A stretch of DNA of 64,000 nt. Origin: Halorussus sp. MSC15.2. Lineage in GTDB: Archaea > Halobacteriota > Halobacteria > Halobacteriales > Haladaptataceae. Location of the stretch: positions 1 through 64,000 of the forward strand of contig NZ_VSLZ01000003.1 of the NCBI RefSeq assembly GCF_010747475.1. The letters run 5' to 3'. Below the pieces are notes generated by a model, which worked only from the letters and a program-made list of their open reading frames with translations, was not told the origin of the DNA and searched no databases. This document shows, piece by piece, positions 2,359 through 8,548 of the stretch. The first letter of the stretch is position 1. Every line of letters begins with the position of its first letter. Both the position numbers and the translations under genes were made by a program.

Positions 2359-2637
2359 TTATTCGGAGTCTGTGCTGGTGTTCGTCTCGGTCGCGGGTTC
2401 CGTCTCGGTCGCGGGTTCCGTCTCGGTGGCGACCGAGTCGGTGCCGCTCTCCTGCATCTCGCGGAGTTCGTTTTCGACTTCCTGACGCCCCTTCTTGAAT
2501 TCGCCCATGGCCTCGCCCGTCGAGCGCGCGAGTTTCGGAATCTTGTTCGCGCCGAACAGCAGGACGGCGATGAGGAGAATCACCATCATCTCCATCCCGC
2601 CGGGCACGGGTCCGAACAGTGGAATCATCTGTACCAT
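2359..2637 (-). CDS. tatA: Twin-arginine translocase subunit TatA/E
   Basis: This 92-residue protein has the TatA/E layout: a short N-terminal hydrophobic helix (about residues 15-30, MEMMVILLIAVLLFGANKIP), the FG hinge, an amphipathic helix (KLARSTGEAMGEFKKGR), and a flexible acidic tail. The tail contains a threonine/glutamate repeat (TETEPA units). TatA oligomers form the pore that exports folded proteins, which matters in haloarchaea because many secreted proteins use Tat signals; several are predicted in this window. It lies between tRNA-Arg and a divergent peroxiredoxin gene, with no tatC visible nearby. Confidence 0.9.
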   Translation of the reverse strand: MVQMIPLFGPVPGGMEMMVILLIAVLLFGANKIPKLARSTGEAMGEFKKGRQEVENELREMQESGTDSVATETEPATETEPATETNTSTDSE

Positions 2638-3640: not shown

Positions 3641-4432
3641 ATGGATAACGCGGAAACCGCCACCATAGCCGATTCCGGAACGGGCGACGAACTCCGAGAC
3701 GTCCTCCACAAGCGAAGCGATATTCTCGACGCAGTCGCCGACCGACCTCGTACGAAGCCGGAACTGATAGACATCGTAGACAAATCACGGTCGACAATCG
3801 ACCGCGGCGTCGATGACCTCGAGTCCGTCGATTGCATCGAACGTCGCAACGGAACGTATCACCCGACGACGAAAGGACGCCTCGCGTTGGCAGAATACAC
3901 GGATTTCACCGAGATTACGAATCGCCTCGAGACGGCCGGTGGAATCCTGAACCACCTTTCGTCAGAGAACCCAGTCAGTCGCGTGTTCCTCGAAGGCGTC
4001 ACGATACATTCTTCGAATCCTCACGTCCCCGGAGCAGCGCTCGAAGAGCGCAACGAGTTGCTTCGGTCGTCTACGCGGATGGTTGGTCTCACGCCGACCG
4101 CTCTCTGCTCCTTTCCCGACACCCTGACAGAGGTCGTTCGTGACCAGTCCATCACTATCGAGATAGTCGTCGAAGAGGCCGTGTTCGAGTCACTCTCTGA
4201 CGTAAAAAGCGACCGAATCACCGCACTAGTGGCGCACGACGACGTTACGTTCTACACGTTCGAGGGAACGCTCCCCTACGCACTGTGGGTGATGGAGCAG
4301 GAAGACGACACGTACGCGGGCATCACCGTGTACGAGAACGGTGGCGTCCAAGGAGTACTGATAAACGACACGACCGAGGCGGTCGACTGGGCCGAACGAG
4401 TCTACCGGAAGTACCGCACGCGGGCAAAATAA
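3641..4432 (+). CDS. Winged-helix transcriptional regulator with FilR1-type sensor domain
   Basis: This 263-residue regulator has an N-terminal winged helix-turn-helix (about residues 20-80; recognition region KSRSTIDRGVDDLESVDCIER). A C-terminal alpha/beta domain (about 125-255) resembles the FilR1/DUF1724 group of archaeal regulators. The C-terminal domain is presumed to bind a ligand or mediate dimerisation; this is inferred from family knowledge. The ATG at 3641 follows an AT-rich promoter. The gene is separated by about 320 bases from the Tat-exported cysteine protein on the same strand, a possible target, although co-orientation alone does not prove it. Confidence 0.8.
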   Translation: MDNAETATIADSGTGDELRDVLHKRSDILDAVADRPRTKPELIDIVDKSRSTIDRGVDDLESVDCIERRNGTYHPTTKGRLALAEYTDFTEITNRLETAGGILNHLSSENPVSRVFLEGVTIHSSNPHVPGAALEERNELLRSSTRMVGLTPTALCSFPDTLTEVVRDQSITIEIVVEEAVFESLSDVKSDRITALVAHDDVTFYTFEGTLPYALWVMEQEDDTYAGITVYENGGVQGVLINDTTEAVDWAERVYRKYRTRAK

Positions 4433-4754
4433 ACGGAAACGGAGGAATCGGACGATACCGTAGTGGTCTGTACTGTCGTTCGAGGGATACCTGTACGCCG
4501 AAGACGGCAGGTTTCTCGACTCCACCGGCCCAGTCACTGTGAGTCCAAGTGGACCTTCAGCGGAGAGCTATTTCGAGGAACCTCGCATTTTCGTCGGCCG
4601 CCTGTGAGCCAGACCGGGTGCGGAGACTCGTCTACCGACGAACGGGTTCACTCACGCGTAGCGAAAAAATCGTCACGGCTCGGTAAGGCAGATAGTATCC
4701 GTGCTCTGACCAGTAAATGATTTAATCATGTCGTAGACTTTATTCCGAATTGCG
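4433..4754. other. Intergenic region without a supported gene
   Basis: An open frame from a GTG at 4463 gives an 85-residue basic, Arg/Ser-rich translation that is unlike the acidic neighbours, so I reject it. The last 50 bases before 4755 are AT-rich (AATGATTTAATCATG), with a TTTAAT element at 4720-4725 that fits a TATA box about 30 bases before the next start. Confidence 0.5.
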
Positions 4755-5384
4755 ATGCCAGAAGAAAAAGGCAGTGATGATAGCAGCGAACAGACCCTTC
4801 CCCGACGAAAGATGCTCCTGACCACCGGTCTCCTCAGCGCAGGCGCAGTTGGCGTTCCCGGTGTATCCGCCGCCAAGGATTCCGGTTCGTCCCCCAAGAT
4901 GGACGAAGAGGACTTCTCGTGGAGCGAAGTCGACCACAGCAAGTGGGAGGCAGTGCCGCAGGGCGATACGCCGCAATCGCAGGTGTACGGTGCCGAAGTC
5001 GCCCAGTCCAACGACCGCATTACGACGCAGGCGTTGCCGGAAATCGTCATCTTCAGCAAGGACATCCCGTCGTACGTGCCCTACATCGGCGGCGATACCC
5101 TGACCGTCAAGATTGTTCCGACCCTGTCGTGGCAGGCGGTTTCGCTCGACGTCGTCGTCTGTCTCAACAGCAGTTGCGTCTCCGTCGGTGGGTTCGGCAT
5201 CGAGAAGAAGAACTCGGACGTGTGCGTCGACTTCAAGCACGGAAGCGTTCCGCTCGACATCGGAATCTGTGCTAACGCGTCGTGGGACGGCGGTTACGAC
5301 GTCACCCTCAGCATCGACGCCGAAGTCTGCGTGAAGTACACGAACTTCTGCGTCAGCGGTTCGGTCGTCGACGTGGAAATCTGA
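4755..5384 (+). CDS. Tat-exported six-cysteine protein of unknown function
   Basis: This 209-residue protein has a clear twin-arginine signal: LPRRKMLL with Arg17-Arg18, a hydrophobic core at about 20-37, and an A-x-A-like cleavage region near residue 40. After a polar linker the mature part is predicted to be beta-rich. Six cysteines lie at 136, 141, 157, 172, 192 and 199, enough for three disulfides; the first two form C-x4-C. I recognise no family. It is probably secreted in folded form. The nearest gene upstream is a FilR1-type regulator. Confidence 0.75.
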   Translation: MPEEKGSDDSSEQTLPRRKMLLTTGLLSAGAVGVPGVSAAKDSGSSPKMDEEDFSWSEVDHSKWEAVPQGDTPQSQVYGAEVAQSNDRITTQALPEIVIFSKDIPSYVPYIGGDTLTVKIVPTLSWQAVSLDVVVCLNSSCVSVGGFGIEKKNSDVCVDFKHGSVPLDIGICANASWDGGYDVTLSIDAEVCVKYTNFCVSGSVVDVEI

Positions 5385-5620
5385 AGCGAACGCGATAGCC
5401 ACCCGTTCCCTGACCGCGTGCCGGACCGGCACACGGTCAGATTGCTCGACCGTACGAACCGGTGACTCGAACGGAGGGACAGTTCGAGTTCGAAAATAGA
5501 TTCTCGTCCCGCACTATTTCGTCGAAATCGTGAGTCCGAAACTTCGGGACCGACGATATCGACGCTGTGCTCGCAGTGTCACCGAGACGAAACCGCAGAG
5601 ATATCGATAGAGACCGCCCG

Positions 5621-5992
5621 TTATATGATATTAGGGGTGAATGGATACCGCCATTCCTGTCCGCGAAGCGCTTTGACTGCCGCTACGAGGCAGAACACCG
5701 TATTGAGAAGCACCAGTAATAGGGTTCCTAGGGCCGCGAGTATGACGAACAAGTCCGAAACCGGTTTGAGACCGAACGCGATTACGCCGAGCACAGCGCC
5801 GACCAACAGGACGAAAATCTGCCAATTTAACGCGTTTCGCGCGTTGGCTTTCGTGAACGCCGCATCCGACAGGAGATAGACCACCCCCACACCGAGAATT
5901 CCGAAAAAGAGACCCAGTAGATGGACAATCGTTCCGAAAATCGTTCGCTTGGCACCGCCTCGATTCTCCGAGGACTCTGTTACTGAATCCAT
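5621..5992 (-). CDS. DUF4870 family membrane protein
   Basis: This 123-residue protein shows the DUF4870 signature, in which a hydrophobic segment is followed by FTKANARNALNWQ and then two more hydrophobic helices ending in a basic AVKALRGQEWRYP tail. Four membrane helices are likely. The function of the family is unknown. The ATG at 5992 lies about 25 bases from a strong TATA box, suggesting a leaderless transcript. A paralogue with the same NARNALNWQ core is encoded at 8090-8548. Confidence 0.85.
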   Translation of the reverse strand: MDSVTESSENRGGAKRTIFGTIVHLLGLFFGILGVGVVYLLSDAAFTKANARNALNWQIFVLLVGAVLGVIAFGLKPVSDLFVILAALGTLLLVLLNTVFCLVAAVKALRGQEWRYPFTPNII

Positions 5993-6015
5993 GTATAAAA
6001 TTTCGCCACCAACAC

Positions 6016-6026
6016 ATATATATTTA
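6016..6026 (-). promoter_or_regulatory. TATA-box promoter of the DUF4870 gene
   Basis: An AT-only tract (ATATATATTTA on the plus strand) lies 24-34 bases upstream of the minus-strand ATG at 5992. This is the spacing expected of an archaeal TATA box driving a leaderless mRNA. Confidence 0.55.
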
Positions 6027-6293
6027 TTGCTTAAACGAATGTCTATGTTTGTGAGCGGCTAGCCAGCCGTCAGTTGCGAACAGAACACCGACCGCGATAC
6101 GTTTCGATGCGCCGACCGTGTCCGACACTCAGTTTGGAACTATTACCACCTGCATCGTCAGCAGTAGCGCCCGGACCCTCGGACTACCGAGATGCTCGCA
6201 GTCGGCGAGGTGTGCGTCACTTCTGTCGGACACAGGCAACTGAACGAGTCTCGACCGTGATGGGCGTATCGTGGGGGTTAGCCCACCACCAAC
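6027..6293. other. Intergenic region between divergent-promoter DNA and the lipoprotein gene end
   Basis: Frames here give proline/arginine-rich translations without features. I see no gene, tRNA or convincing hairpin. Confidence 0.45.
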
Positions 6294-7163
6294 CTACGGC
6301 TTGTAGTGTTCGCGGTGGACGACTTCCTCCGTCCCGTTCTGGATAGCAGTCACGACGATTTGGTCACCCGTCGGGTTCAGAGTGACGACTGCCCACGACC
6401 CGGACCACGAACCGCTGAACTCGGCTTGGTACCCGCTCACGGTCGCTTCGACCCGGATGGTGTCTGCTTCGGTGCCGGGTGAGTCCGTGAGTGAGACCGT
6501 CGCCGTGTGTTCTCTCGGGTCGCCGTACGTAATCTCCTCGACGACGCTCGCGTTCTCGTCTTTGATTGGGTCCTCGAACACCGACTCCGGGTTTTCGGGG
6601 ACTTCGTTTTTCTCTCCGACCCAGAAGACGCGCCACTTACCACCTTCGGTAACGAGGACCCACGTGTTCGTCTTCGGGTCGGACCCCGATTTCTTCAGTT
6701 CGACGGTAACGAGGCTGATGTCGGAGTCACCGATATCGTTCCGGAGGTCGCTGTTATCGAACTGTACCGAGGCGTATTTCAGTTTGAAGATATCTGCTAC
6801 CGACCCGTTTTTGGTTACGATTTCGGTGTCACCGCGCTTTCGGCCCTCACCGATGTTGAACATGACTTTATCCTCGGCGAGCGCGTTCTGCATCGGACTC
6901 GAACTGTGGACGACCTCTCTCATCGCGTCCAAGTCGTCGTTTTTAGCCGCGGCGAGGTACGCGTCGATTACCTCCGTGGGATTAGTCGTGCCATCATCTC
7001 CGGACCCGTCGGTATCGGTGGTAGTCGTGGAATTAGTACTATCGCTCTCGTCGGTCGTCTCGGTGCCGTCGTTTCCTGACATGTCAGTGGACCCGCTTAT
7101 GCAACCAGCGAGGAGGGACGGTACAGCAGCGCCAGCAGTGACCAAATACGTTCGGCGGTTCAT
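6294..7163 (-). CDS. Tat-exported lipoprotein of unknown function
   Basis: This 289-residue protein begins with a Tat-type signal (MNRRTYL, Arg3-Arg4) and a lipobox LAGC with Cys21. It should therefore be exported folded and lipid-anchored on the outer face of the membrane. A Ser/Thr/Asp-rich linker covers about residues 24-60. The following part begins VIDAYLAAAKNDDLDAMREVVH, which resembles the start of NTF2/SnoaL-like folds, then a beta-rich C-terminal half. The NTF2-like reading is only a suggestion. The gene is divergent from the winged-helix membrane protein at 7458 across about 290 bases. Confidence 0.75.
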   Translation of the reverse strand: MNRRTYLVTAGAAVPSLLAGCISGSTDMSGNDGTETTDESDSTNSTTTTDTDGSGDDGTTNPTEVIDAYLAAAKNDDLDAMREVVHSSSPMQNALAEDKVMFNIGEGRKRGDTEIVTKNGSVADIFKLKYASVQFDNSDLRNDIGDSDISLVTVELKKSGSDPKTNTWVLVTEGGKWRVFWVGEKNEVPENPESVFEDPIKDENASVVEEITYGDPREHTATVSLTDSPGTEADTIRVEATVSGYQAEFSGSWSGSWAVVTLNPTGDQIVVTAIQNGTEEVVHREHYKP

Positions 7164-7457
7164 AGCCGATTACAACTCCGTCGCGCTACGAAATAAACAA
7201 CACGCGATTTTGGCGGACGCCAACCCGCGTTCGCCGGGCTAACCCTGCCGGTCGTCAGCATCCGCCGGTGAAAACTGCGGTTCACACCGGCACGAAACAG
7301 GTCTTCCGCCCGGAAGACGAGTTCCCCCTCGTGAGCGCGTCTAACGACGTCTCTCGCTATCGGCGGCCGATTTTACGACCGCATATTCGCGTTTGACGCC
7401 CGCCAAACAGGAGAAGCATTTAATTTACGTACCATCTATAGTTACAACTACGACACG

Positions 7458-8054
7458 ATGTCATCCCTTCCAGAGTGGATTGGGGACCGAATCGACGTCG
7501 GTCTCGACAAGAAACTCACCCAGCGTCACGTCGTCGAGACCATGATAGAATCGGAGCGACCGTTCTTCTCCATTCGCCAGCTCGAGGCACTCGTCAAACC
7601 CGAGGTGAGCAACGAGACCGTACGCAACCGTCTGGACGAACTCCGAGAAATCGACGTCGTGGCCGCAGAGACGTACCCCGAGTCGATTACGCTGTACTAC
7701 GTGAACTACTCCCAATCGGACTGGCCGCTGTCGCCCGAGGGTAAGGATGCGCTCGAAGACGACACACCGCTCGAAACGCTGTCGGCGGCGGACTTTCTAC
7801 GGCTCAGAAACCCGGCCGGAATACGGACGTTAGTCCTCGCCGGCTTCCAATTGAGCCTGTTGCTGTTCTGTGCCGGAACGGTCCTGATGCTCTTCGCGGT
7901 CGACGCACCGGTCCAGAACGACCACGGACTGTGGGAGGCCGCCGGAAACCTCCTCGTCACGTGCGTCGTCCTCCTCCTTTCGGAGCGAATCGTTCGAAAA
8001 GTTCGCCACGACGGGCCTCGCGGAGTGCTTCCGCGACGGTTCGTCTCCAAGTAA
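7458..8054 (+). CDS. Winged-helix protein with two C-terminal membrane helices
   Basis: This 198-residue protein has an N-terminal winged helix-turn-helix (about residues 20-90; QLEALVKPEVSNETVRNRLDELREIDVV) followed by two hydrophobic helices (about 122-145 and 158-176) and a basic tail. This suggests a DNA-binding domain tethered to the membrane. A TTTAAT element at about 7418-7423 lies about 35 bases before the ATG. The DUF4870 gene begins 36 bases after its stop, so the two are probably cotranscribed. I cannot name a target or signal. Confidence 0.75.
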   Translation: MSSLPEWIGDRIDVGLDKKLTQRHVVETMIESERPFFSIRQLEALVKPEVSNETVRNRLDELREIDVVAAETYPESITLYYVNYSQSDWPLSPEGKDALEDDTPLETLSAADFLRLRNPAGIRTLVLAGFQLSLLLFCAGTVLMLFAVDAPVQNDHGLWEAAGNLLVTCVVLLLSERIVRKVRHDGPRGVLPRRFVSK

Positions 8055-8089
8055 CGGATTCAGACCCTCCAAAATCAGATTCCAATACC

Positions 8090-8548
8090 ATGTCACCGAA
8101 ACCCAACTCCGCGTCGCCGAAATCGCCCTCGACCCAACCTGGCCCGTCACTGCTCGCAGAGCGGTCGCTGCTGGGAATCTTCGTTCACGCCATCGGTCTC
8201 GTTTCGGGATTCGTCGGCCCGTGTTTCGTTTACTGGGTGTCGGACCACGAGTTTACGCGGGCCAATGCCCGAAACGCGCTCAACTGGCAACTGTTCCTTA
8301 CCCCTGCGTTCCTCGTCGCAAGCGCCGCCGTCACCGTACCGATGGGCGTGTCGAACTGGTTCGAGATTCCGGACGTAATCGAGTTCGTCCTGTTCGTTCC
8401 GGTGGTGGTAGTCGTCGTAGCCTTGACTTTACTCAGTCTAATGGCGTTCGTGTTGCCAGTCGTCGCGACGGTGAAGGCCATCTTCGGCAAGGCGTGGGAG
8501 TACCCCATAGCGCCCGACTTCGTATCGCGAGTAGGCGGACTTACCTGA
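8090..8548 (+). CDS. DUF4870 family membrane protein
   Basis: This 152-residue paralogue of the protein at 5621-5992 shares the FTRANARNALNWQ core and the C-terminal AKAWEYPIAPDF-like tail. It has about four hydrophobic segments after a proline/serine-rich N-terminus. The ATG at 8090 is chosen because upstream codons in this frame overlap the winged-helix gene and look non-coding. It follows that gene by 36 bases, probably in one operon. Function unknown. Confidence 0.8.
   Translation: MSPKPNSASPKSPSTQPGPSLLAERSLLGIFVHAIGLVSGFVGPCFVYWVSDHEFTRANARNALNWQLFLTPAFLVASAAVTVPMGVSNWFEIPDVIEFVLFVPVVVVVVALTLLSLMAFVLPVVATVKAIFGKAWEYPIAPDFVSRVGGLT

Follow-up and report, generated by a model that had tools for sequence, protein, structure and literature searches.

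The window analysed here, a stretch of 64,000 nucleotides from Halorussus sp. MSC15.2, contains a gene (4755-5384, forward strand) for an exoprotein that we read as a putative halocin-like secreted antagonist accompanied by a membrane immunity partner, with a rough probability of 0.45. Because genes of this family nearly always adjoin a gene for a membrane protein, the two are a good candidate for an antibiotic-like protein and its resistance protein.

The exoprotein gene encodes 209 amino acids, with twin arginines at residues 17 and 18. Residues 1-40 (LPRRKMLLTT...; 4755-4874, forward strand) have the sequence of a Tat signal peptide, in which the twin-arginine motif is followed by a hydrophobic stretch, LPRRKMLLTTGLL, and then by a cleavage region of small residues near residue 40. 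The two arginines were invariant in the ten family sequences aligned (10/10). According to the alignments, residues 41-92 (4875-5030, forward strand) form a linker or propeptide-like region. The remainder (residues 93-209; 5031-5381, forward strand) is a predicted beta domain rich in cysteines, supported by an AlphaFold2 model and by the paired loss of cysteines. Its six cysteines, at positions 136, 141, 157, 172, 192 and 199, all lie within the last 74 residues. Most relatives share the architecture of Tat signal, variable stretch, Y-x-G-x-x-KNA-like motif and beta-rich cysteine domain; the motif between signal and beta domain is missing from the clade of the window in the alignments. Halocin C8 is Tat-exported and rich in cysteines.

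A preliminary description of this region had proposed a Tat-exported protein with an unusual set of six cysteines in its last 75 residues. The Tat signal and the cysteines were both found as described, and the protein would leave the cell folded through the Tat pathway. To call the cysteines unusual was fair: among 376 non-member genes (script-called, in the surveyed loci) only eight had at least six cysteines in any stretch of 75 residues, and among the 67 of these non-member genes with an RR motif near the N-terminus only one did. Comparison with the copy in Halorussus aquaticus gave differences of 3/1/19 by codon position (18 synonymous and 5 non-synonymous codons out of 209), and comparison with the copy in H. 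pelagicus gave 39/26/80. By these differences the frame is coding and under purifying selection, which is strongest in residues 93-209, where 97 of 117 residues are identical in H. pelagicus, against 57 of 92 in residues 1-92 (signal included). A tatA-type gene (2359-2637, reverse strand; PF02416, 1.4e-15) is situated approximately 2.1 kb upstream of this Tat substrate gene; H. aquaticus has a 99% identical copy of it, and it is absent from the H. pelagicus plasmid stretch that was compared.

The cysteines probably form disulfides, since they are gained and lost largely in pairs across the family. Covariation was determined in 24 sequences (27 rows minus the near-copies L002, L006 and L010). 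The first and second cysteine (C136 and C141) occurred together in 7 of the 24 sequences and were jointly missing from the other 17, without a single mixed case (Fisher 3e-6, uncorrected for relatedness). The third and fourth (C157 and C172) occurred together in 22 and were jointly missing from 2, again with zero mixed cases (Fisher 0.004, uncorrected for relatedness). The fifth and sixth cysteine of the window, taken as aligned columns, showed no covariation (Fisher p = 1). The number of cysteines was even in 25 of the 27 rows, the odd ones being L077 and L078. The tail of most relatives reads approximately CADPCPGxxCxxC. By eye, the alignment shows that its inner pair (C6-C7) is absent in the window clade, L017 and L079, and its outer pair (C5-C8) in L045; L077 lacks C7 alone. 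Because the window clade lacks the inner pair and L045 the outer one, C192 and C199 of the window were read as the outer pair. The predicted disulfides of the window protein are C136-C141, C157-C172 and C192-C199, the third being assigned from the alignment alone, by visual inspection. For the CADPCxxxCxxC-like tail of the relatives a metal site was also considered and rejected, as nested disulfides fit the losses better by eye, with L077 as the exception.

AlphaFold2 modelling of the window exoprotein (21 rows) gave a block-mean pLDDT of 66-77 over residues 91-190, where seven strands and no helix were predicted. Residues 1-92 and 196-209, the latter including C199, scored below 50, and the mean of the whole model was 53. 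For the mature part of a homologue (25 rows; pLDDT 67, pTM 0.58), eight long strands linked by short turns were predicted, plus one short helix. The beta-rich fold announced in the preliminary description is thus moderately supported, and the succession of strands, taken by itself, suggests an antiparallel meander.

The exoprotein is filed under no known family. It had no match in Pfam, NCBIfam or PHROGs, and PADLOC gave only a stray Specificity_I match (0.024). When 21 aligned members were compared with four libraries, only generic Tat-signal models and stray weak matches appeared. The stray matches of relatives to phrog_2231 (0.023), phrog_17149 (0.034), copper_res_A (0.028), MelC1 (0.035) and flavodoxin (0.056) were taken as chance. 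The Pfam and NCBIfam searches brought up no halocin model, and a sequence search of the PDB with a 20-row mature profile gave no matches up to E 10. The best Foldseek E-values (window model 0.058, homologue model 0.075) were taken as no match; query-normalised TM-scores were below 0.3 among the 50 best rows. Actin-capping-protein rows, with a Foldseek probability of up to 0.94 and an E-value of 0.14, were likewise taken as no match. Gasdermin/MACPF-like pore formers aligned with the homologue model in VIA at a best Z of 7.4 over 66 residues only, which is below the informative level of the tool. The VIA list was led by pore-forming proteins, and in view of the 66 residues, the Z below 8 and the unrelated proteins close behind, it was given no weight as evidence. 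The family libraries, PDB, Foldseek and VIA revealed no recognisable toxin family, fold or active site. The homology and structure search that had been suggested for this protein brought to light relatives and paralogues, but no convincing match to the PDB or to a known fold.

When the signal was part of the profile, 197 of 392 genomes matched, but below the first 20 or so most of the listed matches covered only the N-terminal part; mature-domain profiles were therefore used for the tallies. Such a profile matched in 15 of 391 genomes of the class (G095 weakly), and a later one in 6 of 125 genomes of one family and in 4 of 170 of another. In a sample of the phylum 4 of 294 genomes matched, all from the order of the window (G123 weakly). 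The matches in G095 (4.8e-5) and G123 (8.8e-5, 31 positions) are unconvincing as members, yet are contained in the tallies of 15/391 and 4/294. Within the genomes sampled, the family is thus confined to haloarchaea, where it is patchy and often multicopy. No viral contig carried the window exoprotein or the paralogue on contig C4 of its own genome, and phage records had no match to the one relative searched.

The genome of the window has four copies: the one in the window, two on contig C2 and one on C4. One of the C2 copies (G000:C2:375268-376001; L002, L014) has its signal part and mature part in separate reading frames. Its H. aquaticus counterpart is a single frame, and the split copy appears to be a pseudogene or a sequencing error. 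The window exoprotein is 98% identical to a chromosomal member in H. aquaticus XZYJ18 and 73% identical to a member on plasmid unnamed1 of H. pelagicus RC-68, annotated 'hypothetical protein'. Haloferax mediterranei ATCC 33500 also has a plasmid-borne member, WP_004060528.1 on pHME132, with the same annotation and an hhalign probability of 99.9 against the family. It stands, within L128:6001-7766, next to a GIDE-like protein, WP_004060527.1, which is annotated 'hypothetical protein' too. Further known members lie outside the neighbour survey described below: one on G011:C16, a fragmentary copy where contig G382:C156 ends, and three sites in G493. At G011:C7:8657 and G011:C16:8649 (L072, L076) the same member and DUF6498-like neighbour occur near two contig starts with equal scores, which is either a duplicated stretch or an assembly artefact.

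A match at C7:81158 of the own genome was rejected as a family member, only the signal region being in common. Contig C7 carries a further Tat-signal protein (L005:982-1752, reverse strand), which has five cysteines in its open frame and resembles the family only in the signal region. A signal-less fragment in G041 (L019/L053), which by eye precedes an AlaRS-like ORF, was taken as a remnant and omitted from the locus counts; it reads WDGGYDV...C...CVSG (L053:1071-1331). Literature searches, in which a 2019 survey of archaeal toxins was not covered, found nothing on the exoprotein family. That survey, by Makarova and colleagues in mBio, is said to deal with archaeal antimicrobial peptides and polymorphic toxins, and may already list the family.

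Convergent with the exoprotein gene lies a gene for a DUF4870 integral-membrane protein (5621-5992, reverse strand; PF09685, 5.2e-17, 62.2 bits, cut-off 25; three predicted transmembrane segments by hydropathy count), the candidate immunity or partner protein. The preliminary description ended at 5384 (its range was 3641-5384) and so stopped short of this gene. It had rightly named the neighbour on the other side a FilR1-type regulator, but the most constant neighbour of the family is the membrane protein. Neighbours were surveyed in 27 loci with a called member, plus H. mediterranei, making 28. Four membrane families were found to adjoin members: DUF6498-like, DUF4870, GIDE-like and RDD. In 24 of the 27 loci the next or next-but-one called gene belonged to one of these four clusters, and L104 and L100 too have a DUF6498-like gene beside the member, which the gene caller had missed. 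Thus 27 of 28 loci had a membrane partner within two genes of the member, and only L092 was without. DUF6498-like proteins were found at 13 loci, GIDE-like at 9, DUF4870 at 7 and RDD at 3, some loci carrying two. The nine GIDE-like loci include L095, with a weak Pfam GIDE match below the cut-off, and H. mediterranei, by alignment; the name itself rests on L095, as four other GIDE-like proteins tested had no Pfam match. Because several loci are orthologous, the 28 do not represent 28 independent events. The partner gene is often convergent or divergent to the member and not in one operon with it, as is also the case in the window.

To set these counts against the background, all copies of the partner families in the 15 member-bearing genomes were considered. 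DUF4870 gave 22 hits, of which 7 were next or next but one to a member, 3 more were in the same island as one, and 12 were neither; here, by contrast with those 12, DUF4870 is tied to a secreted cysteine-rich protein. Pfam DUF6498 gave 39 hits in member-bearing genomes, 7 of them next to a member. The GIDE-like profile gave 21 hits (9 next or next but one) and the DUF6498-like profile 46 (14 next to a member, one of these at G011:C16, outside the survey); both profiles are biased towards adjacent copies, because they were built from them. In total, DUF4870 and the two profiles, with RDD left out, had 89 hits in the 15 genomes (approximately 59 Mb). By arithmetic the chance of such a hit within a 5-kb neighbourhood is less than 1%, a figure to be taken as a guide only, because the partner families were chosen for recurring. 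Adjacency to any gene with at least two predicted transmembrane segments was less telling (21/27 members against 106/268 background genes, by a crude hydropathy count).

The partner families also occur apart from the cassette: 20 regions around other copies contained zero called genes with a match to the exoprotein profile; several of these regions looked like housekeeping loci by eye. In L142, L143 and L144, GIDE-like proteins with two transmembrane segments occur in a conserved context without the exoprotein, their neighbours being prephenate dehydratase-like and small heat-shock-like by eye. Literature searches found no paper on DUF6498.

In the window, the exoprotein gene and its DUF4870 neighbour are part of a six-gene island (3641 to 8548) with the order regulator, exoprotein, DUF4870 protein, Tat lipoprotein, winged-helix membrane protein and second DUF4870 protein. 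The Tat lipoprotein (6294-7163, reverse strand), with an RR motif and an LLAGC lipobox, has conserved counterparts in both H. aquaticus (93%) and H. pelagicus (49%). It showed weak NTF2/SnoaL-like hints only (SnoaL_3, 0.042; Rv0361_Cterm, 0.0018; both below cut-off). The next gene (7458-8054, forward strand) encodes a membrane protein with a winged-helix-like N-terminus and two predicted transmembrane segments, 75% identical in H. pelagicus, with a weak match to Replic_Relax (0.0031, below cut-off). The second DUF4870 protein (8090-8548, forward strand, with an in-frame start codon at 8090) matched PF09685 over 8117-8545 (1.9e-11, 44.3 bits, cut-off 25) and is, like 5621-5992, above the family cut-off; it is 56% identical in H. 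pelagicus. The H. pelagicus plasmid keeps the order of the island, its genes being 49-75% identical, and has an additional DUF6159 gene in between. The genes flanking the island had no match in the 18 kb of H. pelagicus compared, apart from a histidine-kinase-like ORF at 26%; in H. aquaticus the flanks are in common with the window too.

The regulator (3641-4432, forward strand) is a one-component protein that combines an HVO_A0261_N winged helix (PF25213, 4.6e-15, 55.7 bits, cut-off 35) with a FilR1_middle domain (PF08350, 1.2e-28, 100.1 bits, cut-off 27), and is thus like HVO_A0261/FilR1-type regulators in both domains. FilR1 itself is a methanogenesis regulator by its Pfam name, unlike the candidate role considered here. 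Its counterparts in H. aquaticus (identity 92%) and H. pelagicus (65%) also adjoin the exoprotein gene. In the family as a whole FilR1-type regulators were found within three genes of a member in 6 of 27 loci, 3 of which are the orthologous loci of the window. An inverted repeat, ATGATT-T-AATCAT (4717-4729), ends 25 bases before the start codon of the exoprotein gene and is the sole exact copy within the window. At up to two mismatches there were three matches in the window (4717-4729 on both strands and one elsewhere), against 0.05 expected from shuffles. The repeat is complete in H. aquaticus, and its first 10 bases are kept in H. pelagicus. It overlaps the position where the TATA element of a leaderless haloarchaeal transcript is expected, and is a candidate operator. 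The regulator likely controls the exoprotein gene.

The inheritance of exoprotein and partner was compared on a tree of mature domains. The partner label required 7 changes on the tree of 28 domains (minimum 6; shuffled mean 15.7; 0 of 200 shuffles as low), a result that is favoured by near-copies in the tree. The label of host family required 10 changes on 27 domains (minimum 4; shuffled mean 13.2; 1 of 200 as low), and two of the three host families tested singly showed no clustering beyond chance. Judged by these label changes, the exoprotein tree agrees better with the type of partner than with the family of the host. Transfer would explain this, with duplication and loss as the alternative. 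The pairs of H. mediterranei and genome G201 are 87% identical in the exoprotein and approximately 80% in the partner. In the called genes around them (18 and 14) the only other match was a 16-residue piece of a neighbouring ORF. Because these flanks do not match, the exoprotein and its partner occur together in two contexts, one of which is a plasmid.

A halocin-like antagonist with its immunity protein accounts for the patchiness, the multiplicity, the plasmid location and the matching of subtypes. Against it, any interacting pair could show such linkage and subtype matching, the partner families are not dedicated to immunity and L092 has no partner. The partner genes that lie outside a common operon, the loci with two partner types, the lack of covariation between the fifth and sixth cysteine columns, the two rows with odd cysteine counts and the failure to recognise any toxin family, fold or active site also speak against it. 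The main rival, which we consider possible but rather unlikely, is a non-toxic envelope complex, in which the exoprotein would be the external subunit and the membrane protein would anchor it or transduce a signal (in sensing, envelope stress or transport). Constant pairing with membrane proteins and subtype matching suit this complex as they suit any interacting pair, partner-family copies elsewhere stand without the exoprotein, and the island has a lipoprotein and a winged-helix membrane protein that might together make up a sensing module. Such a pair explains linkage and matching equally well, but the patchiness less well: the family is patchily distributed, multicopy and partly plasmid-borne, and it would be odd for a structural complex to combine a single exoprotein family with four unrelated membrane families. 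More doubtful is a secreted binding, scavenging or surface protein (an adhesin, lectin-like protein or ligand binder) with which the membrane gene merely travels. The secreted domain is indeed beta-rich and no catalytic motif was seen in it by eye, but the linkage to membrane genes is far over background, the pair occurs in two contexts unrelated to each other, and neither sequence nor fold points to a binder. Nothing found speaks for the adhesin or binding protein that had been suggested earlier.

The exoprotein can be compared by description, not by sequence, with two secreted haloarchaeal proteins. In halocin C8 of strain AS7092, halocin and immunity protein are described as encoded by one gene (PMC3831642), whereas the candidate immunity protein here has a gene of its own, and between its signal and its cysteine domain the exoprotein has only about 52 residues (41-92). 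HmHapP (HFX_0892) of H. mediterranei is reported to be cut by a halolysin and to act via N-terminal alpha-helices (PMC12893001); the antagonistic role is shown for HapP and only proposed for the exoprotein. The two occur in one organism, but the exoprotein family, with its member on pHME132, is predicted to be beta-rich and is rich in cysteines. That the exoprotein is, like HmHapP, an inactive precursor from which an extracellular protease frees an active N- or C-terminal piece has a haloarchaeal precedent in HmHapP and the halolysin HlyR4 (PMC12893001) and a possible place in the Y-x-G-x-x-KNA-like region between signal and beta domain of most relatives, but is very improbable given the putative nature of the processing site, the lack of the motif in the window clade and the helical activity of HmHapP (PMC12893001) against the beta-rich prediction here. 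By 2019 at least 11 halocins had been reported, with in-depth gene analysis only for H6/H7, H4, S8 and C8 (PMC6759562). For H. mediterranei, further antimicrobials besides halocin H4 (PMC6759562) and further precursors besides HapP (PMC12893001) are reported, and gene knockouts have been made in this species (PMC12893001). Because of these further antagonists it is a test organism with an open phenotype.

If the exoprotein is a halocin-like antagonist, it would be the secreted effector of a small mobile cassette, exported folded via the Tat pathway by means of the signal sequence found. Outside the cell it would consist of a beta-sheet domain clamped by disulfides, as the paired loss of cysteines suggests, and would target, like a halocin, the envelope of rival haloarchaea. 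The neighbouring membrane protein, DUF4870 in the window and DUF6498-like, GIDE-like or RDD elsewhere, would protect the producer by binding the effector or by shielding its membrane target. The FilR1-type regulator would switch the effector gene via the inverted repeat over its promoter. We know of no well-studied separate immunity gene for halocins H6/H7, H4, S8 or C8. A secreted toxin, as raised in the preliminary description, is partly supported in that it is one plausible role; toxicity itself we infer. More tentatively, the family may represent a polymorphic effector-immunity system, in which one family of disulfide-zipped, Tat-exported, beta-rich toxins acts at the archaeal membrane and has been combined with immunity proteins of four or more unrelated membrane families, on cassettes that move among haloarchaea and in some loci are under FilR1-type regulation.

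If the main reading is true, an unannotated family would be a toxin-immunity system that is also represented in H. mediterranei ATCC 33500, and four membrane families, two of which are of unknown function by their Pfam title, would gain a testable role. Even if the exoprotein is non-toxic, DUF4870, DUF6498 and GIDE-like proteins acquire a secreted partner through the pairing.
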